From contig CP073744.1 in the NCBI GenBank assembly GCA_024397955.1, positions 2,825,501-2,889,500 on the forward strand: a stretch of DNA of 64,000 nt, in the 5' to 3' direction. The position numbers and the translations under genes are program-made. Under the pieces are notes generated by a model. The model did no database searches and had not been told where the DNA came from. It worked only from the letters and a program-made list of their open reading frames with translations. The first letter of the stretch is position 1. Each line of letters opens with the position of its first letter. Positions 14,747 to 39,830 of this stretch are shown here, piece after piece. The stretch comes from a bacterium SCSIO 12696 (GTDB lineage: Bacteria; Pseudomonadota; Gammaproteobacteria; Pseudomonadales; Porticoccaceae).

Positions 14747-14753
14747 AATAGCG

Positions 14754-18055: not shown

Positions 18056-18672
18056 CCGGTCACCTCACTGGTGGCCATCTGGCCGCGCTTGTCAGTAGCA
18101 ATGAGGTTGTTGGGCCGCTGCCAGCTCCAGGTGTCGATGGTTTGTGCCACCGGAATCATGTCGATACAGTCCACCGGGCAGGGTTCCACACACAGGTCGC
18201 AGCCGGTGCATTCATCGGCAATAACGGTGTGCATCAGTTTTGCCGCGCCCAAAATTGCGTCTACCGGACAGGCCTGAATGCACTTGGTGCAGCCGATGCA
18301 CTCGTCTTCGCGGATATAGGCGACAGTGGGTATGTCACTGGCTTCGCCGTGTTCCGCATCCAGGGGTATGGCTTCCACCCCCAGCAGATTGGCCAGGGCG
18401 TCGATGGTGTCCTGGCCGCCGGGGGGGCAGTGGTTGATGGCTTCGCCGTTGGCGATGGCTTCGGCGTAGGGGCGACAGCCGGGGTGGCCGCACTGGCCGC
18501 ACTGGGTTTGTGGCAGCAATTCGTCGATCTGGTCGACAATGGGGTCGCCTTCCACCTTGTAACGTACGGCCGCGAAGCCGAGGATGCCGCCGAACAAAAT
18601 CGCCAGCCCCACCATCGCATAGAGAGCGGCCAGCAGCGGTTCCTGGGCGACAATGTTGTAGAGTCGATCCAC
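18052..18672 (-). CDS. rnfB: Rnf electron transport complex subunit B
   Basis: This iron-sulfur subunit (206 residues) has one N-terminal membrane helix (about residues 12-35), a 4Fe-4S motif with C58, C61, C66 and C82, and two ferredoxin-type clusters at C125/128/131/135 and C155/158/161/165. It is the presumed entry point for electrons from ferredoxin. It overlaps rnfC by four bases and follows rnfA with three bases between. Confidence 0.96.
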
Positions 18673-18675
18673 GGT

Positions 18676-19251
18676 TTACACCAGCCCCCCAAAGCCCATA
18701 AACGCCAGTGACATCAGCCCGGCGGTAATCATGGCAATGGCGGCGCCTTTAAAGGGGGCGGGCACATCAGCCACCGCCAACCGTTCGCGCATGGCGGTAA
18801 ACAGAATCAACACCACCGAAAAACCCACTGCCGCACCAAAGCCATAGAGAGCGGATTGGAAAAAGTTGTGGGCTTTGGTGGTGTTTTGCAAGGCTACCCC
18901 AAGGACTGCGCAATTGGTGGTGATTAGCGGCAGAAACACCCCCAGGGTGCGGTACAACAACGGGCTGGTTTTTTCGATAAACAGGCGGGTGAATTGCACC
19001 ACCGCGGCGATCACCATGATAAAGGCGATGGTACGCAGGTACTCGATACCCAAGGGCTCCAGCAAAACAACATTGACAAGGTAACTGGCGATAGAGGCCA
19101 GTGTCAGCACAAAGGTGGTAGCTGCGGACATGCCGATGGCGCTTTCCAGCTTATTGGATACCCCCATAAACGGGCAAAGGCCAAGAAACTGCACCAGCAC
19201 AAAATTGTTCACCAGAATGGTGCTGATGAGTATGACGGCAAATTCTTGCAT
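18676..19251 (-). CDS. rnfA: Rnf electron transport complex subunit A
   Basis: This first gene of the operon encodes a 191-residue polytopic subunit with the family's [18 protein letters not shown] start and [12 protein letters not shown] stretch. RnfA and RnfE are homologous and face opposite ways in the membrane; together they are thought to carry an iron-sulfur centre across it. The promoter should lie in 19252-19356, where I see no clear consensus. Confidence 0.96.
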
Positions 19252-23454: not shown

Positions 23455-24642
23455 TCAGTACCACACGGATAAAAACAGGCGGATAACGTCTGCGTCAAAG
23501 CTGTAGAGGGGCTCACTACCCACGGCAAACGCTCCAGGGTTGGTGTTATGTACAGTCACGTCTCGAAAATTATCGTAGTCGAATGCAATTCGATCCCAAA
23601 ACAGATTCACCGTACTTTTCTTTGCTAATCCCCAGAGTTTATTTGGGATTTCATAGCTGACACCAATACCGATGGTGTTAGAGGTAAATGTACTGAGCTC
23701 TTTGTCTCGGGCAAGAAAGTTTTGTGCGCCCTCGAAGGCAAAAATATCGCTGTAAAAGTCGGCATCGTCCTGTTTGTAGTGGCGCAGTTTGGCTTCAAAG
23801 GTGAGGCCGTGTTTCCAAGGGTGGGTATAGCCAAATTCCACACTATCCGCTTCAATGCCCCAGCTGTCGGCAAAACGGCGGTATTCGCCTTTTAGCGATG
23901 CGTGCCAGGGTAAGTAATAAAGGCTGCGTAAGGCCACAGCGTCACTGTTGCGAGTGCGTGGATACAGTTCCAGTGCGTAGCCAAAGCCCAGGGGCTCACT
24001 GGCATCAACAAAGCGGTACTGCCGGTAGGGGTTATTCAAAAAACCCTCATCCACAATACTTTCCACCGCCAGGCTGGCCACCAGTTTTTGGGTAAGAATC
24101 TGAGTGAATGTAAGGCTGAATTGCTGGCGGTCAATCTCATCTTCAAAGACGTCATCATCGCGGCGGCGCACGGTGTCGCTGCCGACAGCGTAGCTCAGTG
24201 CCAGTGTGCTCAGGTCGCCAAAAAAATCCTGGCTGATGGAAAAACCCACGGTTTGTGCTTCGTAATCGTTCTCGCTACTGGAGGTGACGTTGAGGCTCAT
24301 GGTGGTTTTATTGTGCAGGTAGTCCATGCCCACACTGAATTCGTTGCGTTCCTCTTCGTAGGCGCTGGCGGTGGCAATCACATCAATAGAGGCACTGCTG
24401 ACAAAATCCGTGTAGTAGTTGGCTCGCACCGATACTTTGTCGGCAAAGGTTTTTCGCACCAATACCGATGGTCCATCAATGGTGGCGCCACCACCTTTGT
24501 AGCCGTGGTAGAGAATATCCAGGCGGTCATCCGGCAGAGTGGCCGCGGTGGCACTGAGCGAGAACAGCGCGAAAAATAAAGTACCGAGCGCTGATCGGGT
24601 AGTCAGGCGTGCGTTTCGCGACCAAAAATCAGTTACACCCAC
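23455..24642 (-). CDS. DUF3570 outer-membrane beta-barrel protein
   Basis: A protein of about 395 residues with an export signal (RSALGTLFFALFSLSATAA) and many alternating amphipathic strands ending in an aromatic FLSVWY, the usual terminus of an outer-membrane barrel. The opening LPDDRLDILYHGYKGGGATIDGP matches DUF3570. I favour the GTG at 24642 behind GGGAGG, inside the end of the DUF4266 gene, which implies translational coupling; an ATG at 24699 is possible but gives a 71-base overlap and an awkward signal. It is the last gene of the HzsA-like operon. Related barrels recur with DUF4266 and TlpA-like proteins in other bacteria. Confidence 0.8.
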   Translation of the reverse strand: MGVTDFWSRNARLTTRSALGTLFFALFSLSATAATLPDDRLDILYHGYKGGGATIDGPSVLVRKTFADKVSVRANYYTDFVSSASIDVIATASAYEEERNEFSVGMDYLHNKTTMSLNVTSSSENDYEAQTVGFSISQDFFGDLSTLALSYAVGSDTVRRRDDDVFEDEIDRQQFSLTFTQILTQKLVASLAVESIVDEGFLNNPYRQYRFVDASEPLGFGYALELYPRTRNSDAVALRSLYYLPWHASLKGEYRRFADSWGIEADSVEFGYTHPWKHGLTFEAKLRHYKQDDADFYSDIFAFEGAQNFLARDKELSTFTSNTIGIGVSYEIPNKLWGLAKKSTVNLFWDRIAFDYDNFRDVTVHNTNPGAFAVGSEPLYSFDADVIRLFLSVWY

Positions 24643-24859
24643 AGCCGCCTCCCGAACCACCTTCTGCACCTCGCGCGCCTTCGCGCGACTGGAATACATG
24701 ATGCAGGTAACCAGAGGCCACTGGGTCGCGATCGAATTGCATAATGTCTGACGCCAGATAGTGGCGTTCGTACGGCTTTACCCAGGGTTCGATGCTGCTG
24801 CAACCGCTGAGGGTGAGCAGGACTGTAGCTGTTAATACTGTGCGCTTAATCAGTTTCAT
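24629..24859 (-). CDS. DUF4266 small lipoprotein with Gly/Cys tail
   Basis: A 76-residue lipoprotein (LLTLSGC, C20) with the DUF4266 core VKPYERHYLASDIMQFD and a tail GAEGGSGGGCGCN. Such Gly-rich CxC tails recur in the family and could bind metal or be modified, but this is inference. It lies ten bases after the TlpA-like gene and overlaps the DUF3570 start, so the three genes form a tight unit. Confidence 0.85.
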   Translation of the reverse strand: MKLIKRTVLTATVLLTLSGCSSIEPWVKPYERHYLASDIMQFDRDPVASGYLHHVFQSREGARGAEGGSGGGCGCN

Positions 24860-24869
24860 GGCGCCTCCG

Positions 24870-25361
24870 TTATTCCCGGATCAGTTGTTTAATTTGTTTG
24901 CGGTATTCGTCTTCGTAGCCGGGTTTGTAGCCCTTGTGCAGGTGACGAATATTGCCGTCCCGGTCGATCATCACGGTAGTGGGCATGGCGCTGACGTCGT
25001 AGGCTTTGCTCACAATGCTTTCGGTATCGAACAGAATGGGAAAAGTAACTGGAATGTCATTGAGTACTTGCAGTGCGTCTTCAGTATCTCGCTCTACATT
25101 GACACCGAGAATGGTGAACCCGGCGCGGGAATAGCGTTGGTACAGTTCATCCAACAACGGCATTTCTTGTTTGCAGGGGCCACACCAGGACGCCCAGAAA
25201 TTCAGCATCACCACATTGCCCCGTTGTTCAGCCAAACGCAGGTTGTCGCCACCGTGGCTTTTGAGGGTAAAGTCCGGTGCTTCATCTGCGGCGTTCACGG
25301 TAGTGGCAATAACACCGAGGCTGATAATGGCACTGATAAAAATTTTGGCTAATTTATCCAT
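24870..25361 (-). CDS. TlpA/ResA-type periplasmic thioredoxin
   Basis: A 163-residue exported thioredoxin-like protein. A signal or anchor segment (about residues 5-24, IFISAIISLGVIATTVNA) is followed by the thioredoxin fold with WCGPC (C60 and C63) and the cis-proline loop SAMPTT. The start at 25361 follows a good AGGAG site. By family such proteins reduce disulfides, for example to prepare CxxCH motifs for haem attachment. In this cluster it may serve the haem-carrying lipoproteins or the CxC tail of DUF4266. Confidence 0.9.
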   Translation of the reverse strand: MDKLAKIFISAIISLGVIATTVNAADEAPDFTLKSHGGDNLRLAEQRGNVVMLNFWASWCGPCKQEMPLLDELYQRYSRAGFTILGVNVERDTEDALQVLNDIPVTFPILFDTESIVSKAYDVSAMPTTVMIDRDGNIRHLHKGYKPGYEDEYRKQIKQLIRE

Positions 25362-25380
25362 TGTTATTCTCCTGATTTTT

Positions 25381-25405
25381 GTCATTACCGCTTACGCGGG
25401 ATGAC
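25381..25405. repeat. REP-like palindrome inside operon
   Basis: An imperfect palindrome of the GTCATTCCCGCNNNNGCGGGAATGAC type lies between the beta-barrel gene and the TlpA-like gene. Related units occur at 55930-55951 and 55997-56021. It could modulate message decay within the operon. Confidence 0.5.
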
Positions 25406-25412
25406 GGCGTTT

Positions 25413-26081
25413 TTAAAAAAACGCGGTAAAGCCGAGGGTAAATTCCAGGTTGTTGAGGGTTTTGTCTTCCCCCAACAAATCACTGTTAAATACGTGGTTG
25501 CGCATATCCAGGTGCGCGCTGAGCCAGTCAGTGGCGTAAAAGCGATAGCCCACACCTAAGTTGTAGGTAAAGTGGCTGCTGTCGGCAAAGTCGGTGTTGC
25601 CGGCACCGGCAATCAGGTACAGATTGGTATTGAAAGCACGGCCTTTGCCCAAAAATACCTCACCGGGAAACAGGTTGTAGCCCACCGATAAGTTGTAATA
25701 GGTCAAGTCGCGCTGATCGTCTGGCAGAATTTGAACATTGCCACTCAAATCTTCAAAACTGGTGGTGCCCAGCTCTGTAGTGCCGAGAGTCGCCTCCAGG
25801 AAAAAGTCCTCAGTGGCGTGGTAGGCAGCGCGAATCCCGTATACCGGGTTGGTGCCAAAGTCTTCCACGTTCATAAAACCGGCAAAGCCACCGATTTCAA
25901 AGTTTTCGCTGTCGATGTCAGATTCTTTAATGGTGCGCCTTTCCAGGTCCGGCAACACAATTTGGTCGAGGCCGCGTTCATCGTCGCTCTGTTCCTGAGC
26001 GTCTGCCGTTATAGGCAGTAGTGTCAGGCAGAACACTGCGGCAATGGTTTTTAATAAAAGATGCTGATTCCGAGTGTCCAT
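25413..26081 (-). CDS. Outer-membrane beta-barrel protein
   Basis: A 222-residue protein with a signal peptide (cut after ITADA, about residue 28), a polar linker with ERRTIKESDIDSENFEIGGFAG, and about eight amphipathic strands ending in LEFTLGFTAFF, whose final phenylalanine is the usual barrel-assembly signal. It resembles the small OmpA-like barrels annotated as outer membrane beta-barrel domain-containing. The start is fixed by a perfect AGGAGG seven bases ahead, inside the end of the preceding gene (31-base overlap). It pairs with the SH3-carrying paralogue next to it. Confidence 0.8.
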   Translation of the reverse strand: MDTRNQHLLLKTIAAVFCLTLLPITADAQEQSDDERGLDQIVLPDLERRTIKESDIDSENFEIGGFAGFMNVEDFGTNPVYGIRAAYHATEDFFLEATLGTTELGTTSFEDLSGNVQILPDDQRDLTYYNLSVGYNLFPGEVFLGKGRAFNTNLYLIAGAGNTDFADSSHFTYNLGVGYRFYATDWLSAHLDMRNHVFNSDLLGEDKTLNNLEFTLGFTAFF

Positions 26082-26989
26082 TCTTTTACCTCCTCGTTTT
26101 GGTCGCGGCTGGTCAGGATGACGTGATTGCGATACTCCGCTCGCAATACCATGTTTCGTGTGATGTAGGCTCTGGCGCCAATGCCCACGTTAAGAGTGCT
26201 GTCGGTGCGATCTTCCACCTGCACCAAAGTGGCGTTGGGTTGGGTGCGAATCACACCGGCCCCCAAACTGAAATATGGCGATACCCGCCACTGCGGGAAT
26301 GGCTGGTTCTGAATATTAATGCTGGCCAGAGTGTTGTCGGAAAAATTACCAATGGCGTGAGTAAGGCGCAGTTCGGTGGTAATGTTTTCTGTAATGCGAT
26401 AACCCAGATTGCCATTAAGGGATGATGCGCCTTCGAAATCGCCGGCAGAAATTCCCATTTCCCAACGGCTGTTTTTGAAGTCATCGAAACCGGCGTGCTG
26501 CAATCCCAACTGCTCGCCATTGGGAGACAGGGTTCGCCCCATCTGGCTGCGGTGTACCCAGCCCACCCGTTCACGACCGTCGATACCTTTTTGAACCCGA
26601 ACCTTGAACCAGTCAGTGCGGCTTTTCAGGGTTTCTACGGTTTCGCCTTTTTCCACCACATGAAAAATTGGGTAACCGCGACCAGGGCCGGAATGCATTT
26701 CCAGATAGGGGTCTGCGACGGTAGCGATCAGCGGAGCCTTGTCAGCAAAGGCCGGGTTGTTTGGCAGGGCAATGAGCAGAATGCTCGCTAGCAGTGCTTG
26801 AAATAGAACTGGCAGTCGCGTGCTCCACTTTGTTAAAGAATGCAGCCGGAAAGGTACCCAACACAAACGCGAAGAGGAGGGGGACTCTACGTTTGTGACT
26901 ACGGGCACCAAACCAGCTGCGGGGGAGACCGGTTGCGCAAAAAAACTTTGCAGTGTGCGCCAAAAATTATTGGCCATTTTTATTATCAT
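26051..26989 (-). CDS. SH3-domain outer-membrane beta-barrel protein
   Basis: A protein of up to 312 residues. A hydrophobic export segment (residues 60-82, ending NPAFA) is preceded by an unusually long N-terminal region, so the true start may differ from 26989; no better start with a ribosome site is visible. Residues 85-150 form a bacterial SH3 domain (LEMHSGPGRGYPIFHVVEKGE, landmark), and residues 170-312 form an eight-stranded barrel ending LGISIFY, similar to the adjacent barrel protein. SH3 domains of this type often bind peptidoglycan or protein partners in the periplasm. Confidence 0.75.
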   Translation of the reverse strand: MIIKMANNFWRTLQSFFAQPVSPAAGLVPVVTNVESPSSSRLCWVPFRLHSLTKWSTRLPVLFQALLASILLIALPNNPAFADKAPLIATVADPYLEMHSGPGRGYPIFHVVEKGETVETLKSRTDWFKVRVQKGIDGRERVGWVHRSQMGRTLSPNGEQLGLQHAGFDDFKNSRWEMGISAGDFEGASSLNGNLGYRITENITTELRLTHAIGNFSDNTLASINIQNQPFPQWRVSPYFSLGAGVIRTQPNATLVQVEDRTDSTLNVGIGARAYITRNMVLRAEYRNHVILTSRDQNEEVKEWTLGISIFY

Positions 26990-27000
26990 TTTTTGTTGTT

Positions 27001-29745
27001 CTAGTTTTGCGGTACATCAAACGGGTTGTTGTAGTACTGCCCACCAATATCGATCCATTCCGACAGTAACTTGAGTTCAGCGTCGTCCAGATAGCCCTCG
27101 TGGCTGCCGCCAGTGGCAAAGCGCGAGAAAAGTCGCGGGCTTGCCAAGGCACCGTTTACGGACAGGCTGGCGGGCACGGTCACCGGGTCGAGAATGGGAA
27201 TTGGGTCGCCATTGGCATCCAATACCTGGTTGCCGTCGGCATCCAGCAAAAACAGCAGGTTGCCATTGGCATCGGTGCGCTGAACCATCACGTCTTGCAG
27301 AGTGTTGGTGTCAATATCAAGAAATTGTTCGTTGTCCGGGAACAGCAGCTCCCGGTAGGAAGTGAGGTGATCCGGTTCATCGGTCGAAGGAGTACCCGCC
27401 AAATTGAGCTGTCCCAACGGCTCCATGGGCATATTGTTGTCGTCGACAATATTGTGGCAGCTGGTGCAGGTATTGTCCTGCAACAAAGTGATGCCGTCGG
27501 TATCAAAAATCTGGCGGTCGCGATCCCACAGTGGCTGAATGTGTACCGGGTAATTGACCACGATGCGGCAGTTGCTGGTCCAGTTGGTCTGGCACGCCAA
27601 TGAGGTGGGGTGAGGCGTGGCCAGGTCGGCGTACTGATATTGGATATCCGGGTCAGGCGTGCTGATATTGGCGTCGCTCCACACATCACTAAATATCAAA
27701 TCCACAGTCAGTTCGCTAACACCGTTAATGCGTCCCAGGGTTTGCGCCATGGTTTCGCCGGCATCGGGAAACAGAGTGCTGGTGGTGTTGGGGAAGGCTA
27801 CGCCGGTCACCATAGCACCGGTGTTAATGCTCGGCGCTTCGCCATTAGGGCGGCCGTGAGGCAGCTCACTGGTGCGGCTGTGACAGCCGCTGCATTCACG
27901 CTCTTCGCCGGGGCGCAGTTGCAGCCAGTTGTTGTGACGGCCACCAATGGGCTGGTTACTGATGCGTCTGCCGTCGGCGTCCAGTACTGACACCATAAAA
28001 GGTACATTGGCGGGAATTTTTACCTGCACAGAGCCGTCTGGCTGGATGGGTGTGTAACCCAGCACTTCCCGCATCAATTGGTTTTGGCTGCGGCCAAATG
28101 CGGTGTTGTCAAAGTCCAGTATGTCTTCGTCCGGCATGGGTACTGCTTTTACCACCCGCAAAAAGCGCGCAGAGCGAGTGGCAAAGTCGGCCTGTAGAGG
28201 GTCTGCGGTTGCAGCAATGCCATTGGCGGTGGTGTCGGTACCATCCAGGTCGTAAACACTGCGAATATGCAGCACACCGACATTTTCGCTGAGCAAGTCG
28301 TTATCCAGAGTGACGCCGGGTACGCCATCTTCAATGTTGGCGGGCAGGCTGCGTGGCTGCATGGCGACGACTTCGGTAAACATGATGTCTTCAATACCAT
28401 TGACGATCGGCTGCTGGGATTGGTCCGTCAGGTTGTAGCTCCAGATGCCGTACAGAGGTGCTGCCTCTTGTACGTTGGGCAGGGCCAGGTTGGCATCGGT
28501 GCAGGGAATAATGGTGGTGCCGTCAGCCGGGTCAATCAGGCGGCACTGTGCCCAGCTTACCAGCAGACGATCGGTGCCGTCGAGCAAGGGAAATATCGAA
28601 CTGAAGTGGCCATGAGGGGAGGGTGTGCCGTCGGTAAACACTTCCGCAAACGCCAGGGATTGTTGGCCTTCACCACTGTTGGGCGCTGCGGGATTGGACA
28701 GCTCTGACTGACCAATTTCGGTAAATCCGGCAAAATTCACCGCCACCATATCACCCCCCAAACGGTCGCTTTGCGTGGGGCGTAGCGATACCAGCACTTG
28801 GCCATTGGGGAGTTCGCGAGGGTGCAAGAAGCGACCTTCGCTGTTGTTGGTGCCGGTATCTTGGCTGTGAAAGCCATAGACAAAATCCAGCTGGCGACCG
28901 TCGGGATTCATCTTGTACAGGCTGATGCTGTTGTTGCCTGCGGCGTTGTCCCAACGGCTGAACATCACTTCGCCGGTGCTTAATACGGTGGGATCCAGGT
29001 CGTGACTCTGGTTATAGGAAACCTGGCGAATATTGCTGCCGTCACTTTCCATCACGTGAAGCACAAACGCTTCGGTATCGCGGTCTTCAGTGAGGCCAGA
29101 GTACTGAGGTTTGCCTTCGTCCAGCAAAATGGAGCGTGCCTGGCGTTGGCGGGTAGAGGAAAATACGATGCGACCATCTGCCAGGTAGTGAGGCGCAATA
29201 TCCTGGCCAGCGCGGGCGTTGGTGTCGGATTCGATAATGCGCCGCAGGGTATTCGTTGTCAGGTCGTATTCCCAGATATTCCAGGTGGGCTGTTCGTCGT
29301 CATCGGCGTTGGGTATTTCCGGGGCGCGCATGGAAAACAGCAAGCGTTCGCCATCAAAGGAAGGTTCCAGGTCTTTGACATCGTAGAGCTCGTCTTCGGC
29401 AAACACTTCAGCGGTAATCACCCGCTGCGGTGAACTTGGTGAAGCGCGATCGCGAATCACCAGCTCGGCGCCGGGACGGAAAGCTGCGGGCTCGAGCACA
29501 TCGTCTGCTTCACGGTTGCCATTGTCATCTACCGGTAAAGGGCGTTGTACGAAAAAAATGGGTATATCCAGCACCACCGGATCCGGGCTTTGACCGCTGC
29601 CCAGCCCGGCGCCAGAGCCACCTTCGCCACCACCGCTACACGCTACCAGTAATAGTGAACTGATGGCTGCGCAACTTTTTTTCAAAAAAGCTTTTTTTAG
29701 AAAAACTCTTTGCAAAAAAGAAAGGCTAAGCGCGGAGTGGCTTGT
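27001..29745 (-). CDS. HzsA-related dihaem lipoprotein with PD40 propeller
   Basis: A large exported lipoprotein (914 residues from the GTG at 29745, with GAGGAG nine bases ahead; the ATG at 29856 would add a non-signal-like stretch). The lipobox LLVAC places C36 at the mature end. Residues of about 110-330 carry PD40/propeller-type repeats (SDGSNIRQVS, STGEVMFSRWD). The C-terminal half resembles the hydrazine-synthase alpha-subunit family (RHNNWLQLRPGEERECSGCH), with c-type haem motifs at C618-C621-H622 and C760-C763-H764. No other hydrazine-synthase subunit is present, so the chemistry is unknown. It is the first gene of the six-gene minus-strand operon. Confidence 0.8.
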   Translation of the reverse strand, partial: TSHSALSLSFLQRVFLKKAFLKKSCAAISSLLLVACSGGGEGGSGAGLGSGQSPDPVVLDIPIFFVQRPLPVDDNGNREADDVLEPAAFRPGAELVIRDRASPSSPQRVITAEVFAEDELYDVKDLEPSFDGERLLFSMRAPEIPNADDDEQPTWNIWEYDLTTNTLRRIIESDTNARAGQDIAPHYLADGRIVFSSTRQRQARSILLDEGKPQYSGLTEDRDTEAFVLHVMESDGSNIRQVSYNQSHDLDPTVLSTGEVMFSRWDNAAGNNSISLYKMNPDGRQLDFVYGFHSQDTGTNNSEGRFLHPRELPNGQVLVSLRPTQSDRLGGDMVAVNFAGFTEIGQSELSNPAAPNSGEGQQSLAFAEVFTDGTPSPHGHFSSIFPLLDGTDRLLVSWAQCRLIDPADGTTIIPCTDANLALPNVQEAAPLYGIWSYNLTDQSQQPIVNGIEDIMFTEVVAMQPRSLPANIEDGVPGVTLDNDLLSENVGVLHIRSVYDLDGTDTTANGIAATADPLQADFATRSARFLRVVKAVPMPDEDILDFDNTAFGRSQNQLMREVLGYTPIQPDGSVQVKIPANVPFMVSVLDADGRRISNQPIGGRHNNWLQLRPGEERECSGCHSRTSELPHGRPNGEAPSINTGAMVTGVAFPNTTSTLFPDAGETMAQTLGRINGVSELTVDLIFSDVWSDANISTPDPDIQYQYADLATPHPTSLACQTNWTSNCRIVVNYPVHIQPLWDRDRQIFDTDGITLLQDNTCTSCHNIVDDNNMPMEPLGQLNLAGTPSTDEPDHLTSYRELLFPDNEQFLDIDTNTLQDVMVQRTDANGNLLFLLDADGNQVLDANGDPIPILDPVTVPASLSVNGALASPRLFSRFATGGSHEGYLDDAELKLLSEWIDIGGQYYNNPFDVPQN

Positions 29746-29829
29746 CACGTCGATTGGCTCCTCGATGGGGTACAACAGTTTTGTATTTCTGGTTTTATAT
29801 TTTTTGTGTGGGCTATTTTTCGTTGCCAG

Positions 29830-29843
29830 CGGCATTAATGCCG
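29830..29843. promoter_or_regulatory. Perfect 14-bp palindrome in divergent promoter region
   Basis: CGGCATTAATGCCG is an exact palindrome in the 308-bp gap between the two divergent arms of the HzsA-like cluster. Its position suits an operator for a regulator of both arms. No regulator gene is encoded nearby, so the protein is unknown. The rest of the gap is AT-rich with no clear sigma-70 consensus. Confidence 0.4.
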
Positions 29844-30053
29844 TGCGCTCTGTCACGAATTAGTGGTTGTTGGTGCGGATGAATGGCAGTGGGCAGGGTT
29901 TTTGTGCGGAACTGAGAAAGAGGTCTCAAGTTGGGGGATAACGCAGCGGTATTTCCCAATGGGTGGTGGGAATAGTATGCCAATCAATAAATACAAATAT
30001 AAACAGTAAATAACGAATAACCCAGCCACGACACAACTATTAAGGCGAGGCAA

Positions 30054-31268
30054 ATGAATAAAAAGCCACTCCTCACCATCAGCCTGCTCAGCCTTGCTCT
30101 TGTCAGCACCGCTGTTTTTGCCGGGCCTCGCGAGCAGGCAAAGCGTATTCACGACCGTATTGCCGGTGTGCCACCTTCTGATCAGGTGCTCGCAAATATG
30201 GAAGCGCTGTTGGCGGATGCCAACCCCGACAATGATATTGATGCTGCGTTAATGGCCACGGCAAACCCGGAGTTTTATCGGGTGAGCCTGAAAAATTTTG
30301 CTGCCAGCTGGACCAACAGGGACCAGAGTCAGTTTGTTGCGCTTAACGATTACACTGCCACCGTTATCGGTCTGGTGCGAGACGAATTGGATTTCCGCCA
30401 GGTGCTGTACGGCGACATCATTTATATCGGCAATCCCAGCCTGGGGTTACCCGCCTACGCCAATGGCAACAATAATCACTATGAAGCATTGGAAAACCAG
30501 GGCATCGACTTGCAGGCAGAGTTGGTGCAGCGCACGCAATCATCGGTCAATGGACTACCCAGTGAAGCGACTGCCGGAGTAATGACCACCCGCGCAGGTG
30601 CTCAGGCATTCTTTATTGCGGGCACCAATCGGGCAATGTTGCGTTTTACCTTGCTCAATCACTTGGGGCGGGATCTGGAGCAATTACAGGATACCAGTCG
30701 TTCGCCAGATCGTATCCGCCAGGATGTGTCCCGTAGCCCTGGTGGTGACAGCCGTATCTTTCTCAATAACTGTGTGTCTTGCCACAGTGGTATGGACCCA
30801 CTGGCTCAGGCATTTGCCTATTACAATTTTAGCTACGATGCCAACAACGACCCCACCGGTATCAATGGCCAACTGGTCTACAACAGTGCTGGCCAGACAG
30901 ACCCGGATACCGGCACCCGGGTGGTGGGCAAATACCATATTAACAGTAACAACTTCCCGTTCGGTTACATCACCCCTGATGACGGTTGGGACAACTACTG
31001 GCGAGCGGGCGTCAACAGCCTGTTGGGCTGGGACAGTACGCTCACAGGCAGTGGCAATGGTGCCAAGTCACTGGGTATGGAACTGGCCCACAGTCGCGCC
31101 TTTGCCGAATATCAAGTAACCAAAGTATTCCGATCGGTCTGCTTACGTGAACCCGGTGATAGCAACGACCGCGGCCAGGTAACGACCATCACTAATTCAT
31201 TTATTGCCAATGGCCACAATCTCAAGCGAGTGTGGGCGGAAGTGGCTCTGTACTGTAAGGGGGAGTAA
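30054..31268 (+). CDS. Secreted monohaem protein, unknown function
   Basis: A 404-residue protein with a clean signal peptide (cut after AFA, residue 23). One c-type haem motif, CVSCH (C240, C243, H244), follows RIFLNN and precedes SGMDPLAQAFAYYNF, a layout reminiscent of planctomycete-type cytochrome domains (DUF1585/DUF1588-like), although I cannot assign the family surely. Residues 24-240 are mostly helical. A good AAGGCGAGG site precedes the ATG. It heads the plus-strand arm and is followed after four bases by the LamG lipoprotein. Confidence 0.7.
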   Translation: MNKKPLLTISLLSLALVSTAVFAGPREQAKRIHDRIAGVPPSDQVLANMEALLADANPDNDIDAALMATANPEFYRVSLKNFAASWTNRDQSQFVALNDYTATVIGLVRDELDFRQVLYGDIIYIGNPSLGLPAYANGNNNHYEALENQGIDLQAELVQRTQSSVNGLPSEATAGVMTTRAGAQAFFIAGTNRAMLRFTLLNHLGRDLEQLQDTSRSPDRIRQDVSRSPGGDSRIFLNNCVSCHSGMDPLAQAFAYYNFSYDANNDPTGINGQLVYNSAGQTDPDTGTRVVGKYHINSNNFPFGYITPDDGWDNYWRAGVNSLLGWDSTLTGSGNGAKSLGMELAHSRAFAEYQVTKVFRSVCLREPGDSNDRGQVTTITNSFIANGHNLKRVWAEVALYCKGE

Positions 31269-31272
31269 GACA

Positions 31273-33750
31273 GTGACCAATTTGCAGATTACTCGACTCC
31301 TTAAAGCCACTGTACTGCCTGCGGCTGTATTGTTGTTGACCGCCTGTAGCGGTGGCAGTGGCTCACCTACCACTGCACTGCCTAACCCCAACCCCGGTGG
31401 TGGTGGCAATGTTGGCGGCGTGGTCTATAACGGGCCGGCGCCACAAACAGCGGATGTACAAAGCTTCCGAATTCATGTTTGGGATAACCTGGTTGAAGAT
31501 AACCGCTGTGGTCAGTGTCACGGCGACAGCTTGCAGTCCCCGGCCTTTGTACGCACCGACGATATCAACACGGCCTACAACGCCGCTAACGCGGTTGTGG
31601 ATTTAAATAACCCGGCCAACTCTGTACTGGTTACCCAGGTGGCCGGTGGTCACAACTGCTGGTTGGCCAGTGACCAGGCCTGTGCCGATATTATTCAGGG
31701 CTATATCGAAGACTGGGCCAACGACAGTGTGGGTGGCAGCGGTTCGGTGATTTCCCTGACTGCACCTGCTATCAGAGACGTGGGTGACAGTAAAACTTTT
31801 CCTGCCGATAGCGCTGACTTTGGCAGCACCGTTTACCCGCTGCTGACTCAGTATTGCTCCAATTGCCACAGCGACGACGCGGGTACTCCCCAGCAGCCTT
31901 ATTTTGCCGCTGCGGATGTGGACGTGGCTTACGCTGCGGTACAGAGCAGAATCGATTTGGACGATCCGGCTCGCTCACGGTTGGTGGTTCGCTTGCGCAA
32001 CGAATTCCACAACTGCTGGGACGATTGCTCAAGTAATGCCACTGAAATGGAAAATGCCATTACCGCATTTGCCGATGGCATTCCCCTTACCACCGTCGAT
32101 CCTCAGCTGGTGATCAGTAAAGCGTTGACCCTGTTCGACGGTGTGCTGGCCAATACCGGTGGCCGCCACGAGAGCAACGCCATTGCCAAGTACGAATTCA
32201 AAACTGGCAGCGGCTTTACCGCCTTTGATACCAGTGGTGTCGACCCGGCCATGGATCTGACCATCAGCGGCAACGTGGAATGGGTGGGTGGTTTCGGTAT
32301 TCGCATTAACGACGGCAAAGCGCAAGCAACAACCGCTGCCAGCGCTAAATTGCATAACTTGATTGCCGGTAGCTCTGGAACCGGTGAGTACAGTATCGAG
32401 GCTTGGGTGGCACCGGGTAACGTCACCCAGGATGGCCCGGCGGGTATTGTCAGCTACTCCGGTGGCAACAACATCCGCAACTTTACCTTGGGGCAGACAC
32501 TGTATAACTATGACTTCCTCAACCGCAGCAGCACGACTGATGGCAACGGCGAACCAGCCCTGTCTACAGCGGATGCAGACGAACGCCTGCAAGCGACCTT
32601 GCAGCATGTGGTGGTGAATTACGATCCAGTGAATGGCCGTCGCATTTATGTAAACGGCGAATACACCGGCGACCTGGACAGTGTCGGTGGCGGTAACCTC
32701 AGTGACTGGGACGACACCTTTGCTTTTGTGCTGGGCAATGAAGTTTCCAATCAGCGCTTGTGGCAAGGGGTATTCCGCCTGGTGGCGATTCACAATCGGG
32801 TGCTCACCGATGAGCAGATTCAAGATAACTTTGACGCCGGAGTAGGTGCCAAATACCTGCTGCTGTTTAGTGTCAGCGACCTAGTGTCTGTGCCCGACGC
32901 TTATATCGTGGTGGAAGTCAGTCAATTCGACAGTTACAGCTACCTGTTTAATGCGCCTTACTTTATCAGCCTGGATAGCACGGCCACGCCGGACAATATT
33001 CCGGTGCAGGGTATGCGTATTGGCATCAATGGTCGCGAGGCGCCAGTAGGGCAGGCGTACCAGAACCTGGACATCACCCTTAACGCCAATGACTATAGCG
33101 CCAGCGGCCAGGTAATGTCTGATCGCGGCACCATTGTCGCACTGGAAAAAGGCCCGGAATCCGACGAGTTTTTCCTCACCTTCGAGCGTATTGGCAGCAA
33201 TACCAATGTGGTATTGGAGCCGGTTCCGCCAACACCGGCAACGCCAGCAGATCTTGACCCTCAATCGGATATTGGCCTGCGAACCTTCGACGAGATCAAC
33301 GCCACTATGGCGGCGGCCACCGGGGTCAGTGCTACTCAGACCGATGTGCAAAACACCTTTAATACTGTGCGCCAGCAGTTGCCGACGGTGGAAAGCATTA
33401 ACGGGTTTTTGTCTGCTCACCAGATGGGTGTTACCCAGCTGGCTATTGAGTACTGCAATGCCCTGGTGGAGGACACCAGCCTGCGCACCAGTTATTTCAA
33501 TAGCTTTAACTTTGCTGCCAGTGCCGCCACAGCGTTTGATACTCAGGGCGAAAGGGATCTGATTATCACGCCGCTGTTGAACAATATTGTGGGCACCAAT
33601 CTGAGCAGTCAGCCGGATGATGCAGCGATGCGTACTGAACTCAATAACCTGATCGGCACTATGACTGCCAACCCGGCTACCGATACCAGCACTGTGGTAA
33701 AAGCCACCTGTGCCGCGGTACTGGCCAGTGCCACTATGTTAATCCAGTGA
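31273..33750 (+). CDS. LamG-domain lipoprotein with two tandem haem modules
   Basis: An 825-residue lipoprotein starting at a GTG behind AAGGGGGAG (lipobox LLTAC, C25). Two repeated modules of about 115 residues each carry one haem motif (C79-C82-H83; C195-C198-H199) followed by a D(L/I)(N/D) box and an HNCW motif (127-130 and 246-249) whose histidine may be the second iron ligand. Residues of about 305-525 form a LamG/concanavalin-like beta-sandwich (YSIEAWVAPGN), which often binds carbohydrate or protein. The C-terminal 300 residues are unrecognised. It is probably attached to the outer membrane. Confidence 0.8.
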   Translation: MTNLQITRLLKATVLPAAVLLLTACSGGSGSPTTALPNPNPGGGGNVGGVVYNGPAPQTADVQSFRIHVWDNLVEDNRCGQCHGDSLQSPAFVRTDDINTAYNAANAVVDLNNPANSVLVTQVAGGHNCWLASDQACADIIQGYIEDWANDSVGGSGSVISLTAPAIRDVGDSKTFPADSADFGSTVYPLLTQYCSNCHSDDAGTPQQPYFAAADVDVAYAAVQSRIDLDDPARSRLVVRLRNEFHNCWDDCSSNATEMENAITAFADGIPLTTVDPQLVISKALTLFDGVLANTGGRHESNAIAKYEFKTGSGFTAFDTSGVDPAMDLTISGNVEWVGGFGIRINDGKAQATTAASAKLHNLIAGSSGTGEYSIEAWVAPGNVTQDGPAGIVSYSGGNNIRNFTLGQTLYNYDFLNRSSTTDGNGEPALSTADADERLQATLQHVVVNYDPVNGRRIYVNGEYTGDLDSVGGGNLSDWDDTFAFVLGNEVSNQRLWQGVFRLVAIHNRVLTDEQIQDNFDAGVGAKYLLLFSVSDLVSVPDAYIVVEVSQFDSYSYLFNAPYFISLDSTATPDNIPVQGMRIGINGREAPVGQAYQNLDITLNANDYSASGQVMSDRGTIVALEKGPESDEFFLTFERIGSNTNVVLEPVPPTPATPADLDPQSDIGLRTFDEINATMAAATGVSATQTDVQNTFNTVRQQLPTVESINGFLSAHQMGVTQLAIEYCNALVEDTSLRTSYFNSFNFAASAATAFDTQGERDLIITPLLNNIVGTNLSSQPDDAAMRTELNNLIGTMTANPATDTSTVVKATCAAVLASATMLIQ

Positions 33751-33790
33751 TAGAGTCAAAACTGAGCAGAATAAAGAGCGGAATAAGAAA

Positions 33791-35431
33791 ATGATTATTA
33801 AAAAACAAAGCCCGAGAGCCCATGGCCTGAATGAGCCTTTGTTCCACGCAGACCATTCACGGCCGGTTACCCGCCGTGACTTTCTCGCCCAAGGTTTCTG
33901 TGCCGGTGCGGGTACCGTACTGGGTGGCTCGGTATTGAGTTTATTTGCCAGCCCTCGTAAGGCTCATGCTCTTTCTCAGGATTTGATCGATGCCATGGCT
34001 GACGCTGGTTGTTCTTCTGGCCTGGGAGCAGGAAAAATCCCCTTTATCTGCTTTGATTTGGCCGGCGGTGTGAATGTTGCCGGTTCCAACGTATTAATCG
34101 GTGGCCAGGGCGGGCAGATGGATTTTCTCAGCACCGCGGGTTATTCCAAGCTGGGTTTGCCCGGCGATATGATTCCCGGCGTGGCGGAAGTAAACGGTGC
34201 CGGCTCGTCGGAAACCGGCACCAGTAATGGCGACCATACGGATACCACCCTGGGTTTGGCATTTCACAGCGACAGTTCGTTTTTGCGCGGCATTCTGGAA
34301 AAACTGTCGCCGGGAACCGCAGCCAATATCAACGGCGCCATTATTCCCGCGCGTTCGGAAAACGACACCGGCAACAACCCCCACAACCCCATGTACGGCA
34401 TTGCTACCGCTGGTGCTGAAGGCTCTATCCTGAGTTTGATCGGCTCTCGCAGCAGCGACTCCGGAGGCAACTCGATGGCGCCCATGGCCATGATCGACCC
34501 CACCATTCGCCCCACCAAAGTGGATCGCCCCACGGATGTCACCGGTATGGTAGATATTGGTGATCTGGTTGGCTTGTTGAATCAATCCGATGCAGTGGCG
34601 GTGATGGAATCCGTCTATCGACTCAGCAACGCCAAACTGGGCGCAGTGAATACCCGTTTGACCAACGATGCGGTGATCAAGGATTTGATTGAGTGCGGCT
34701 ACCTGAGCAGTGCGGATCTGGCAGAGCGTTTTGGTGACCCGAATACTCTGAATCCGGATGATCGCAATGCGCCCAACCCGATTATCGTTAGCGACAATGG
34801 CGGTATTTTCTCCACCGCCGAATTTGATGGCGAAGGCGAATTCCGCAAAACCGCGTCAGTGATGAAAATGGTGATCGACGGCTTTGCCGGTGCCGGCACC
34901 ATTACCATGGGCGGCTATGACTACCACACCGGCGAGCGCGCCACCGGCGAAATTCGCGATCTGCGCGCTGGCCGTTGCATGGGTGCCTGTCTGGAATACG
35001 CCGCGCGTACCAACACACCGCTGATGATGTACGTTATGAGCGACGGCTCAGTGGCCAGTAATGGCCGTATCGACAATTCCGTGGATGGTCGCGGTAAAGG
35101 AGAGTGGACGGGCGATAACCAGTCTACCGCGTCTTCTTTCTTTATGGTGTACAACCCCAATGGCCGCCCGCAGCTACTGGGTGCCACTCCAGAAGAGCAG
35201 GCCCGCCACCAGCAAATTGGCTTTATGCGCAACGATGCCTCTGTAGAAACCGCTGCTACACCTGCGGCCAACAATGTGAATTTGCTGGTAGAAACCGTGA
35301 TCCTGAACTATATGGCGCTGCACGGTGAGCAGGGTAATTTTGCCAATCTGTTCCCGGCGAATGGCTTGGGTAATTCTGCGTTAATGGATTCACTGACCGC
35401 GTTCCAGCCAATTGTGAATGGGACGATTTGA
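33791..35431 (+). CDS. Tat-exported DUF1501-like protein
   Basis: A 546-residue protein with a twin-arginine signal (TRRDFL, R28-R29, then a long hydrophobic stretch to AHA near residue 60), so it is exported folded and may hold a cofactor. The mature part resembles the DUF1501 group of sulfatase-fold proteins, with a Gly/Asp-rich FDLAGGVNVAGSNVLIGGQGGQMDFL region and GGYDYHTGERATGE with a conserved HTG. Relatives are sometimes misnamed as secretion proteins. It follows the LamG gene after 40 bases. In other bacteria DUF1501 proteins also pair with c-haem and LamG proteins. Confidence 0.7.
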   Translation: MIIKKQSPRAHGLNEPLFHADHSRPVTRRDFLAQGFCAGAGTVLGGSVLSLFASPRKAHALSQDLIDAMADAGCSSGLGAGKIPFICFDLAGGVNVAGSNVLIGGQGGQMDFLSTAGYSKLGLPGDMIPGVAEVNGAGSSETGTSNGDHTDTTLGLAFHSDSSFLRGILEKLSPGTAANINGAIIPARSENDTGNNPHNPMYGIATAGAEGSILSLIGSRSSDSGGNSMAPMAMIDPTIRPTKVDRPTDVTGMVDIGDLVGLLNQSDAVAVMESVYRLSNAKLGAVNTRLTNDAVIKDLIECGYLSSADLAERFGDPNTLNPDDRNAPNPIIVSDNGGIFSTAEFDGEGEFRKTASVMKMVIDGFAGAGTITMGGYDYHTGERATGEIRDLRAGRCMGACLEYAARTNTPLMMYVMSDGSVASNGRIDNSVDGRGKGEWTGDNQSTASSFFMVYNPNGRPQLLGATPEEQARHQQIGFMRNDASVETAATPAANNVNLLVETVILNYMALHGEQGNFANLFPANGLGNSALMDSLTAFQPIVNGTI

Positions 35432-36573: not shown

Positions 36574-38010
36574 TTACTTCAACAGCAATGAACGCAATAC
36601 CTTAAATACCAAATCTCGATTCTTGAGAATAAATCGGTTTTTGGGCAGGGATGCTTTGGAGTACAAGACTGTCTTTGCTTTCGAAAATGTCAAAAAACCT
36701 TCATGGCCGTGATAGTGCCCCATGCCTGATGGGCCGACACCGCCAAAGGGGGCATCGTCAGCAGCTACGTGCATGGCTGTATCGTTGATGGCAACACCGC
36801 CACTGTGGGTATTTTTCAAAATGCGATCAATCAGCGCGTTGTTTTTGGACATGATATACAGTGCCAACGGGCGTGGGCGCGCGTTGATATAGTCAATCAC
36901 TTCACCAACGTCCTGATAGGTTTTGACCGGCAGTATAGAACCAAAAATTTCCTCCTCCATAACCCGCATATCTTGGCTGACGTTAGTTACGATGTGTGGG
37001 TAGATCAGCCTGCCATCACCGTCTTTGTATTCCTTAACAGGGTGAATGTCCGCACCTTTCTCTTTGGCGTCGTCCAAAAATCCTTTCAGACGTGTAAATT
37101 GCCGGTCAGTCACAATATGTGTTTGGGTATTTTTGTTGTCGCCAGAAAGGTGATACTCCGCGTAACGTTTTTTGAATGTCTCTACAAATTCCTGCTTTCT
37201 GTGCTCGGGAACGAATACGTAATCCGGAGATACACAAATTTGCCCAGAGTTGGTCGACTTGCCGATGCTGATGGCATCCACAGCAGTGTCCATGCTGATG
37301 TCGTTATCGATAATTGTTGGGGACTTACCGCCCATTTCCAGAGTGATTGGCGTAAGGTTGTCAGCAGCGGCTTTGGCGACCAGCTTTCCAACGTTGGTTG
37401 AGCCCGTAAATATCAAATGGTCGAAGGGTAATGCTGAGAAGGCGGCGCCAATGCCAGCTTCGCCTTCAATAATAACGACATGCTCGGAGATAACGTCCAC
37501 TACCTTGCGCAACGCTTTATTGGCATTGGGAGTGAATTCACTCATTTTAATCATAACCCGGTTCCCTGCAGCGAGAGCTTGTACAGCTGGCCCCAGGGCC
37601 AGGAAGAAAGGGAAGTTCCAGGGAGTGATGACGCCAACAACACCCAGTGGCTGGTAATGTACACGAACCTTGGATGGGGCCAACATTAGGCCCGCATGCC
37701 GCTTTGACGGCTTCATCCATTTTTTCAGATTTTTCAGCGCGTAATTGATACCTGCCACACTGGGTAATACATCGGCAATTAGCGAGTCAAATTCACTGCG
37801 ATAACCATAATCTTGTTTGACGGCGTCATAGATGAGTTGTTCGTTGTCTATCAGCGATTTCTTGAGTTTTAGCAATATGTCTCTGCGTTGCTCATAACTG
37901 AGATAAGGTGCGTTGTTGTAAGCGGATTTAATGCTATTAAATTGCGCCTGAAGCTGTTCCTCTTGAACAGCGCTATCTTGTTGTAAAACGGTGCTTGCAA
38001 TGGCGTTCAT
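36574..38010 (-). CDS. Coniferyl-aldehyde-dehydrogenase-like aldehyde dehydrogenase
   Basis: A 478-residue NAD(P)-dependent aldehyde dehydrogenase that oxidises aldehydes to acids. The NAD-binding region (ITPWNFPF, FTGSTNVGKLV), the general base in LEMGGKSP and the catalytic cysteine in NSGQICVSPDYV are visible. The size, the lack of an N-terminal extension and the C-terminal hydrophobic tail fit the coniferyl aldehyde dehydrogenase group, which acts on aromatic and long-chain aldehydes. I start it at 38010 after AAGGA. It is the third gene of an operon with the Fe-alcohol dehydrogenase and a TetR gene, so alcohol to aldehyde to acid can be done by one operon. Confidence 0.9.
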   Translation of the reverse strand: MNAIASTVLQQDSAVQEEQLQAQFNSIKSAYNNAPYLSYEQRRDILLKLKKSLIDNEQLIYDAVKQDYGYRSEFDSLIADVLPSVAGINYALKNLKKWMKPSKRHAGLMLAPSKVRVHYQPLGVVGVITPWNFPFFLALGPAVQALAAGNRVMIKMSEFTPNANKALRKVVDVISEHVVIIEGEAGIGAAFSALPFDHLIFTGSTNVGKLVAKAAADNLTPITLEMGGKSPTIIDNDISMDTAVDAISIGKSTNSGQICVSPDYVFVPEHRKQEFVETFKKRYAEYHLSGDNKNTQTHIVTDRQFTRLKGFLDDAKEKGADIHPVKEYKDGDGRLIYPHIVTNVSQDMRVMEEEIFGSILPVKTYQDVGEVIDYINARPRPLALYIMSKNNALIDRILKNTHSGGVAINDTAMHVAADDAPFGGVGPSGMGHYHGHEGFLTFSKAKTVLYSKASLPKNRFILKNRDLVFKVLRSLLLK

Positions 38011-38044
38011 GGCCTTTTCCTTCAAAATCAAATGTAAGTTGAAT

Positions 38045-38602
38045 TCAGTTTTTGCCTTTGGAAAGGCTTTCAATAATTAATGTCATCTGTTCGAGAAGTT
38101 TTTCTCTTGATGATTCTTCCAGTAAGAGGCCTTTTGCGGCACATATCAGTGTGAAGGCTATGCCGTCTGCGTTAGCGTTCGAGGCATAGCAATGGTATTC
38201 AAGGAACTCCGCAAGCCGTGCTCGATAGCGTAATGGCCAGTCTTCCTCTGATTTCCAGGTTTCATTCAGCACATTGTCCATCACCGCAGTACCGTGGGAG
38301 TGGCTGACAATATCGATGGCTTCTCCCGTGGAAATGTCAAAAACTTTAAGTAGTGTGGACAACGGGTCTTGGTGGCCATTGCTTAATACGGTAAAGATTT
38401 CCCTGTACATGGCGGCCAGGTACACATTAATCACTCGCTTGTAGCATTGTTCTTTCGATCCAAACTTTTTGTATATCGACTGTCTGGATAAGCCAGCAGA
38501 GCGAGCGATATCTTCCATCGAAGTTTTCTGGAAGCCATACTGAGCAAATGTGGTCAGTATGGCTTTTGCCATTAACTCCTCGTTTTTTGCTGTACTAGCC
38601 AT
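38045..38602 (-). CDS. TetR family transcriptional regulator (paralogue 1)
   Basis: A 185-residue TetR-type repressor. The helix-turn-helix reads SMEDIARSAGLSRQSIYKKFG (about residues 28-48) and the C-terminal ligand domain is helical. It starts at 38602 (GAGG ahead), 13 bases after the alcohol dehydrogenase stop and 34 bases before the aldehyde dehydrogenase, so it is embedded in the operon it probably controls. A close paralogue lies at 40242-40793, with almost identical helix-turn-helix and C-terminus. A likely operator lies at 39915-39933. Confidence 0.85.
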   Translation of the reverse strand: MASTAKNEELMAKAILTTFAQYGFQKTSMEDIARSAGLSRQSIYKKFGSKEQCYKRVINVYLAAMYREIFTVLSNGHQDPLSTLLKVFDISTGEAIDIVSHSHGTAVMDNVLNETWKSEEDWPLRYRARLAEFLEYHCYASNANADGIAFTLICAAKGLLLEESSREKLLEQMTLIIESLSKGKN

Positions 38603-38615
38603 TGGTGCCTCATTC

Positions 38616-39830
38616 CTATTGCGCAAATGACAAATCACAGTGGCCATCGACGATGGATTGCAAAATGGATTTGATGTCGCTGCGTTTCATGCGCTTTGGC
38701 ACTGCGTAGGTTTGTCGAGCTTCTTTCAATGCATCACTGGTGATCTTGTCAAAATCCTTTTCTTTGAGTTCAGTGAGACTTGAGGGAATGCCGATTTCTT
38801 TGGCTAGCTGATCCACCCGTGCGATAAATTTGTCTGCCAGTATCTGCGTATCGGCAGTGGATTGCTGGCCACTTAACATCGTTTCAAGCTGAGCAAAACG
38901 CTGTGCGCAAACGGTTTGATTGAATCGCAACACCCTTGGCAATATCACTGCGTTGGTCAAACCGTGGGGGGTGTCATAATGTGCACTCACCTGATGTGAG
39001 ATAGCGTGTACATAGCCCAAGCTGGCTTTGGTAAAGGCGTGGCCTGCGAGCAAGGCAGCCTGGGCAACCATTTCTCGTGCTTTCAAGTTGTTGCCGTCGG
39101 TGTAAGCCAAGGGTAGGAAGTCAAACAACAACTTGATTGCAGTGGCCGCCTCCCGGTCAGTGTCAGTAAAGTTATTGCGTGATGTATAGGCCTCAATGGC
39201 ATGGGTCAACGTGTCCATACCCACAGCGGCTGTCATGTGAGGCGGCAATGATTTCAATAGCTCTGGGTCGAGAGCAACAGCCAAGGGAATGTATTTGGGG
39301 TCAACAAAAAATTTCTTTTTGTGAGTCTCCGGCTCCGAAATAACGGCCGTATTGGTTGCTTCAGACCCGGTTCCCGAGGTTGTTGGAGCCACATAGAAGG
39401 GCAGCGGTGGTTTTTTGACCTTAAGGATGCCGGCCAGCTTTTCCAGGCTGCGGTTATTAGTACTGGCAGCAGCAATCACTTTTGCCACATCAATGATAGA
39501 ACCACCGCCAATAGCAATAACGCTGTCACAGTTGTGTTCTTTGCTCAACGCAAGCCCAGCTTCCACATCTTTGTATGTGGGGTTGGGAGTGACACCATCG
39601 TATATGGTGACTTCACAGCCATTTACCTTGAAGTGATTAAGCAGCTCATCCAACTTCCCATTTTTTAGCAAAAAGCCTCCGGTAAGCAGTAGAGGTCTGC
39701 TTTGCCCACTGGCGATGATCAGGTCTGCCAATTGCTGACTCGATCCAACTCCGGAAAATGCCAATGGCTTTTGTGATGGCCAAAATGTTGAAAATGCACG
39801 AAGCACATAGGTGATTGCAGTGGACATCAT
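38616..39830 (-). CDS. Iron-containing alcohol dehydrogenase
   Basis: A 404-residue group III alcohol dehydrogenase. The NAD-binding GGGSIIDVAK and the TTSGTGSEATNTAV segment are present, and metal ligands are expected in GMDTLTHAIEAY and in GYVHAISHQVSAHYDTPHG. A good AAAGGA site precedes tandem ATG codons. It heads an operon with TetR and aldehyde dehydrogenase genes. The substrate is unknown; the partner suggests aromatic or medium-to-long-chain alcohols. Confidence 0.9.
   Translation of the reverse strand: MMSTAITYVLRAFSTFWPSQKPLAFSGVGSSQQLADLIIASGQSRPLLLTGGFLLKNGKLDELLNHFKVNGCEVTIYDGVTPNPTYKDVEAGLALSKEHNCDSVIAIGGGSIIDVAKVIAAASTNNRSLEKLAGILKVKKPPLPFYVAPTTSGTGSEATNTAVISEPETHKKKFFVDPKYIPLAVALDPELLKSLPPHMTAAVGMDTLTHAIEAYTSRNNFTDTDREAATAIKLLFDFLPLAYTDGNNLKAREMVAQAALLAGHAFTKASLGYVHAISHQVSAHYDTPHGLTNAVILPRVLRFNQTVCAQRFAQLETMLSGQQSTADTQILADKFIARVDQLAKEIGIPSSLTELKEKDFDKITSDALKEARQTYAVPKRMKRSDIKSILQSIVDGHCDLSFAQ

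Follow-up and report, generated by a model that had tools for sequence, protein, structure and literature searches.

Gene sets that encode a DUF3570 protein, a DUF4266 protein, a thioredoxin-like protein and the flavin transferase ApbE have been proposed to act as electron-transfer systems, 25 of these clusters carrying a ferrous iron transporter, and ApbE was shown experimentally to flavinylate a Chlorobium DUF3570 protein with flavin mononucleotide (FMN) (PMC8238504). Among motor systems of the Agl/Glt kind, the gammaproteobacterial core complex (gltC/D/E/G and aglRQS) is described as one region with an additional gene, the function being called unknown, in Luciano 2011 (PMC3169522); Wartel 2013 suggests the core complex as a possible basal transport machinery and reports that Agl-Nfs moves spore-coat glycan (PMC3858216). 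Here we describe a divergent nine-gene cluster, at positions 23455..35431 of a 64-kb window (the whole stretch of DNA analysed) from the 2.93-Mb, one-contig genome of the marine bacterium SCSIO 12696, that brings relatives of these systems together. The two arms of the cluster are one unit, and the system to which they belong is larger than the nine genes, having a motor operon and ApbE as partners. On balance, we favour the reading that the nine genes encode the outer-membrane or surface redox half of a motor-coupled envelope machine.

An earlier note on this DNA had proposed nine open reading frames carrying five c-haem motifs. All nine were found at its coordinates and strands, its DUF3570, DUF4266, TlpA, barrel, SH3, HzsA-related and LamG labels agreed with Pfam/NCBIfam matches, and the five CxxCH motifs were counted again (two in the HzsA-like protein, one in the monohaem protein and two in the LamG protein). 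The export signals (lipoboxes, Sec signals and the RRDF motif for twin-arginine translocation (Tat)) were assigned by eye. The features are as follows.

23455..24699, minus strand: DUF3570 outer-membrane barrel (PF12094, E 3.5e-37, 128.7 bits, cut-off 25)
24629..24859, minus strand: DUF4266 small lipoprotein with a CGCN end, a CxC motif (PF14086, E 1.5e-22)
24870..25385, minus strand: TlpA/ResA-like secreted thioredoxin with WCGPC (Redoxin, E 7.7e-30)
25413..26081, minus strand: outer-membrane beta-barrel of the TIGR04565 (OMP_myx_plus) family (E 2.3e-51, 174 bits, cut-off 60)
26051..26989, minus strand: SH3 domain, then a second outer-membrane barrel (SH3_3, 4.6e-8; OMP_b-brl, 3.2e-10; 50.5 bits against TIGR04565, below the cut-off of 60)
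27001..29856, minus strand: HzsA-like dihaem lipoprotein (HZS_alpha PF18582, 1.9e-14; two CxxCH)
29857..30053, no strand: intergenic region from which the arms diverge, 197 bp long if the longest HzsA-like open reading frame is taken
30054..31268, plus strand: secreted monohaem protein, probable remote PSD2/PSCyt3 (DUF1585/DUF1588) relative (one CxxCH; remote profile matches)
31273..33750, plus strand: LamG (lectin-like) dihaem lipoprotein (PF13385, 2.5e-19; two CxxCH; GTG start at 31273 chosen, the longest open reading frame beginning at 31204)
33791..35431, plus strand: Tat-exported protein outside the Pfam families, with a predicted alkaline-phosphatase-superfamily fold (RRDF motif by eye)

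When named genomes were scanned once for the Tat protein, 473 relatives were obtained, and the best 80 loci, whose record titles are gammaproteobacterial or compatible with Gammaproteobacteria, were used for comparison. All nine genes stand in the same order and orientation in 62 of these 80 loci; TlpA is moved in 1 and missing in 4 of the others, and a contig end cuts the remaining 13. Best-segment identity of the HzsA-like protein across the conserved loci is about 40-55% (92% in one congener), and conservation of order and orientation at such identities exceeds chance. The left arm is present at every one of the 67 loci that no contig end interrupts. Since the 80 loci come from the query's closest relatives, they are a biased sample, and a less biased set was obtained by drawing 274 genomes evenly from the window's class. 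In this draw the Tat protein, marking the right arm, was found in 35 genomes (a few of them as contig-edge fragments only), the HzsA-like protein in 39, belonging to 27 families by a hand count of labels, and both in 32 (Fisher p 1.6e-31, genomes taken as independent). Where both arms lie on one contig, which was the case in 27 genomes, they are at most 20 kb apart in 24, with a spacing of 3.97-4.75 kb in 23 and of 1.1 kb in genome G194; in the other three they are 48-360 kb apart. In a thinner draw of 200 genomes for the phylum, the HzsA-like profile was found in 5, all within the window's own class. TlpA is missing from loci L083, L088, L094 and L098, and a TlpA-like gene lies elsewhere nearby in L042, L089 and L141.

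These counts bear on an improbable alternative, namely that two independent systems merely share a divergent promoter region. Such an arrangement would account for the seven of 39 HzsA-like genomes in which the right arm was not found and for the three (G259, G270 and G101) in which 48-360 kb separate it from the HzsA-like gene, but it sits poorly with the regular neighbourhood of the arms (62/80 and 24/27). Moreover, the genes stay together in G194 even though they are arranged differently there: the monohaem, LamG, alkaline-phosphatase-fold, ApbE, HzsA-like, SH3/barrel, barrel, TlpA and DUF3570 genes follow one another on one strand with the motor operon divergent. ApbE, too, may be placed at the end of the right arm. 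The Tat protein occurs in the absence of an HzsA-like gene in three genomes (G058, a contig-edge fragment, G092 and G158), and in G092 TlpA and DUF3570 are still near the right arm. The conserved gene order led us to reject the idea of two unrelated neighbours, and the proposal of a single system made in the earlier note is borne out in so far as its arms are regular neighbours.

The companion motor operon was seen downstream of the Tat gene, where two large TPR genes occur in 28 of the 80 loci, followed by ExbB-, ExbD- and TonB-like genes in 18, 15 and 16, each locus ending 10 kb past the Tat gene; the domains of these downstream genes were read from a Microbulbifer example. With TPR2, the larger TPR protein, as the marker, the operon was detected in 12 of 58 related genomes, comprising all 8 with a strong HzsA-like match, 4 without such a match and neither of the 2 with a weak HzsA match. 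One of the 58, the one-contig genome of the same genus (G001), lacks HzsA-like and TPR2 genes alike, even though these are not linked to each other in the genome of the window. In the 274-genome draw TPR2 was present in 63 genomes, including 38 of the 39 with HzsA-like genes (p 1.5e-28, on the same assumption of independence) and 25 of the 235 others. It lies within 20 kb of the HzsA-like gene in 27 of 28 same-contig genomes, the sole exception being the window's genome, and in G039 the right arm, left arm, ApbE and motor operon are all contiguous. The operon of the window's genome, recognized by homology to the Microbulbifer operon, is as follows.

G000:C1:890.2-899.6 kb: intact motor operon (L124)

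This operon encodes a secreted protein of about 177 aa, two large TPR proteins (TPR1 and TPR2), a TPR lipoprotein, an ExbB-like, two ExbD-like and a TonB-like protein, the last with an AgmX/PglI C-terminal domain (67.5 bits, cut-off 40). By protein type it contains the core-complex gene set (ExbB and two ExbD, TonB-like GltG, TPR proteins GltC/GltD and the TPR lipoprotein GltE), and the GltG and GltE models matched it below their cut-offs (50 bits against 650, and 34 bits against 225). In protein types and single-operon layout, including its small extra genes, the companion operon thus resembles the gammaproteobacterial Agl/Glt core complex as well as Agl-Glt/Agl-Nfs of Myxococcus, and one of the window's barrels belongs to the OMP_myx_plus family. 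It differs in that haem, flavin-barrel, thioredoxin and alkaline-phosphatase-fold proteins are added, of which the available portions of PMC3169522 and PMC3858216 make no mention.

A further partner is ApbE, the cluster type of which was found in 28 of the 39 HzsA-like genomes and in 6 of the 235 others; in 24 of the 34 ApbE genomes it lies within 5 kb of a Tat, HzsA-like or TPR2 gene. It is downstream of the Tat gene in 29 of the 80 loci. In 15 of these it is co-directional with that gene and no more than 50 bp away, in 4 it is again co-directional but about 9 kb further along, and in 10 it is encoded on the opposite strand. Its position differs by genome, being after the Tat gene, directly before the HzsA-like gene or, in G040, before the motor operon. 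The window's genome has two ApbE genes, one of them 49% identical to the cluster type. DUF4266 was found in 66 of the 274 class genomes. It accompanies the HzsA-like gene in 35 of 39 genomes, and wherever both are on the same contig (34 cases) they are within 4 kb of each other. The motifs of the small redox proteins are conserved, the CGCN end being present in 68 of 69 DUF4266 homologues and WCxxC in 67 of 67 TlpA homologues. The cluster is thus like the previously described sets in having DUF3570, a CxC-ended DUF4266 and a thioredoxin-like protein, with ApbE near in many relatives; unlike them, as far as the available text of PMC8238504 describes them (with or without DsbD), the window set is joined to an HzsA-like dihaem lipoprotein, two more barrels, a right arm and a motor operon, its flavinylation motif is degenerate and its nine genes include no DsbD. 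Within the 80 loci, the presence of a nearby ApbE gene showed no simple relation to whether DUF3570 carries SGAS: the gene was seen downstream in 18 of the 36 loci with SGAS and in 10 of the 22 with SSAS. The earlier note had proposed an outer-membrane or surface-exposed electron-transfer or enzyme complex; a surface redox assembly fits, and the motor operon and ApbE were the partners it had missed.

The machine that we favour would have its other half in the Agl/Glt-like operon encoded elsewhere in the chromosome, together with ApbE. This reading starts from the observed gene content, conserved motifs and arm linkage and from the finding that the HzsA-like gene and the motor operon occur in the same genomes and usually near each other; from these we infer the electron path, the motor coupling and the substrate. 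Periplasmic TlpA would hand reducing equivalents to DUF4266, the CxC lipoprotein, and to the DUF3570 barrel, which is probably flavinylated in some members (with FMN where the motif is kept); from there they would reach the surface haem lipoproteins. All three right-arm proteins would form the substrate-handling end, and the proton-driven motor, acting on the barrels via its TonB-like arm and TPR proteins, may power assembly, movement or opening of the complex. Electrons could flow either to or from an extracellular substrate, most plausibly a surface glycan or an extracellular metal or electron acceptor.

Several observations weigh against this reading. In the window's own genome the motor operon lies 1.96 Mb from the cluster and neither ApbE is linked to it; G091 has HzsA-like and right-arm genes but no TPR2, and conversely 25 class genomes have TPR2, and 31 have DUF4266, in the absence of an HzsA-like gene. 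ApbE was not found in 11 of the 39 HzsA-like genomes (at E 1e-40), and to these must be added the genomes mentioned above in which the right arm is not found or is distant. The window's DUF3570 protein lacks the [ST]GA[ST] motif, the site reading SSAS rather than SGAS, so its flavinylation is doubtful; the motif is absent in 31 and single in 36 of 67 homologues, and none has two, the number reported for flavinylated DUF3570 proteins. Both P values take genomes as independent, orthology to the M. xanthus glt genes is suggested by composition and sub-cut-off models, and the nine-gene set is described here from genes and sequence comparison.

The same genes could be explained by a motor-driven surface polymer machine like Nfs, in which the motor moves or anchors a secreted glycan that the LamG lipoprotein binds, the alkaline-phosphatase-fold protein edits and the haem and flavin proteins oxidize or cross-link. 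The spore-coat glycan transport described for Agl-Nfs (PMC3858216) and the LamG domain and predicted fold in the right arm speak for such a machine. We consider it unlikely, given that the LamG and alkaline-phosphatase-fold genes are missing from the left-arm-only loci that were read (see below) and that the redox genes are the more constant part; in addition, no glycosyltransferase was seen by eye in the 15 commonest downstream gene groups, of which the family library covered a part, the upstream flanks lying outside the survey.

We hold to a similarly low estimate for a pure outer-membrane electron conduit or metal reductase, serving extracellular respiration or the assimilation of iron, for which the motor operon would be just a frequent genomic companion. 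Although the five haem motifs and the electron transfer proposed for the DUF3570/DUF4266/thioredoxin-like/ApbE sets, 25 of them with the iron transporter (PMC8238504), are in its favour, the motor operon co-occurs in 38 of 39 genomes and is tightly linked, and no large multihaem cytochrome is encoded among the nine genes. Regulatory patterns do not favour it either: of 11 patterns searched in 74 divergent intergenic regions, FNR, Fur core, ArcA, sigma-54 and LexA occurred in none, and a looser Fur-like pattern was at chance level (4 regions, 3.0 expected). Pairs of CRP-like half-sites were present in 6 regions (0.2 expected), and full CRP, PhoB-like and OxyR-like patterns in 1 each (0.1, 0.0 and 0.6 expected); no regulator site is common to many of the 74 regions, and they share no dyad. 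In the window the length of this region varies with the start of the HzsA-like gene, which may be 29856, 29748 or 29715: the longest open reading frame leaves 197 bp and the GTG at 29748 leaves 305 bp, as compared with the 308 bp given by the earlier note.

If the motor-coupled redox machine exists, it would be a third use of this motor class, besides gliding and spore-coat transport, and the linkage hints at a role of the motor in bacteria that are not known to glide. It is possible, and we put this more tentatively, that in many lineages the core complex is a proton engine that moves, assembles or gates a surface redox complex with an extracellular substrate. Two open questions are joined in this way: the role of the Agl/Glt-like core complex without documented gliding, and that of the DUF3570/DUF4266 set and of HzsA-like proteins outside anammox bacteria. 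The gene set is defined and widely distributed, and is present in isolates of the marine genera Microbulbifer, Paraglaciecola, Aliiglaciecola and Colwellia, so that both questions can be tested together by deletions. A single complex of motor and redox module, if it exists, would couple mechanical work driven by protons to redox chemistry at the surface, a combination of which no description was found in the open-licence literature searched. The joined system, too, was not found described in the titles and abstract starts of those open-licence papers, though this does not prove that no description exists. Relatives of every module are known, and we regard the whole as a variant of the Agl/Glt kind with a redox cargo, which could possibly be a distinct class.

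The profile of the HzsA-like protein (A2) matches PDB 5c2v chain A collinearly with a whole-chain E of 6.8e-17; the middle domain contributes most of the score, and the outer stretches are weak alone. By comparison with HzsA, the protein consists of a propeller, a middle haem domain and a C-terminal haem domain, in HzsA's order, with two c-haem motifs. This layout, together with the HZS_alpha match, would be expected of a hydrazine-synthase-type nitrogen enzyme. However, in HzsA the catalytic haem ligand is Tyr591 (PMC12607021 and PMC12758564), whereas none of the 70 readable homologues has a tyrosine at +1 to +6 after the haem motif, and the NCBIfam equivalog NF052339 gave 40.8 bits against a cut-off of 800. 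Because the haem-ligand tyrosine is missing, the HzsA-like protein is not a hydrazine synthase; that identity was rejected, and the corresponding nitrogen-enzyme alternative is largely refuted and has a negligible probability. The protein also differs from HzsA in having a lipobox and other gene partners and in sitting in gammaproteobacteria. The label 'HzsA-related' therefore holds for the domain layout and fails for the catalytic haem ligand.

The window represents a linked subtype, with 2+1+2 haem motifs. In a left-arm-only subtype (nine loci read: L022, L023 and L136-L142), the HzsA-like protein has a third CxxCH, which in the two such proteins aligned lies in a C-terminal extension. The right arm is absent from all nine, a cysteine lipoprotein of about 170 aa follows the HzsA-like gene in most, and ApbE directly precedes it in 6. 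Where the right arm is distant (G101 and G270), the LamG protein has one haem motif, not two. Genome G057 has three HzsA-like loci (L021, L023 and L024/L129), one in a nine-gene cluster, one in a cluster with the left arm only and one at a contig end, immediately following a motor operon. Weak HZS_alpha-type proteins of about 840 aa (E ~1e-6) were found on G016:C6 and G032:C6 (L025 and L026), and the TPR2 search was negative in both genomes.

Planctomycete-type PSCyt (DUF1585/1588) cytochromes pair with Tat-exported partners, and the right arm is similar in that a probable DUF1585/DUF1588 relative shares an operon with a Tat protein. The CxxCH of the monohaem protein is present in 75 of 75 homologues; PSD2 matched 37 of 40 family members at E<=1 (best 2.1e-6) and PSCyt3 matched 26 of 40, and the window's own protein scored 12.8 bits against PSCyt3 (cut-off 27), consistent with a probable remote relationship. 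Its predicted model, in which the haem loop has low confidence, gave no PDB fold match. The arrangement differs from the planctomycete type in that a LamG dihaem lipoprotein, with two CxxCH in 75 of 79 homologues, stands in between, the usual neighbour is the HzsA-like arm, and the Tat protein fits neither DUF1501 nor another Pfam family. The DUF1501 model gave no hit at E<=1 to the window protein or to any of 41 family members, and none at E<=0.05 to three remoter members, and the predicted fold belongs to the alkaline-phosphatase superfamily; membership of DUF1501 was thus rejected on sequence, and the earlier 'DUF1501-like' label has to be dropped.

Elsewhere in the window, an Rnf operon lies about 4 kb from the cluster on the minus strand (13359-19251), with RnfC at 15821-18055 and an Rnf-Nqr subunit at 13359-14075, both from Pfam, and an RnfA-like protein at 18676-19251, recognized by eye. 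On the other side, an adjoining cluster on the minus strand (36574-39830) contains an aldehyde dehydrogenase, a TetR regulator and an iron-type alcohol dehydrogenase in a row.

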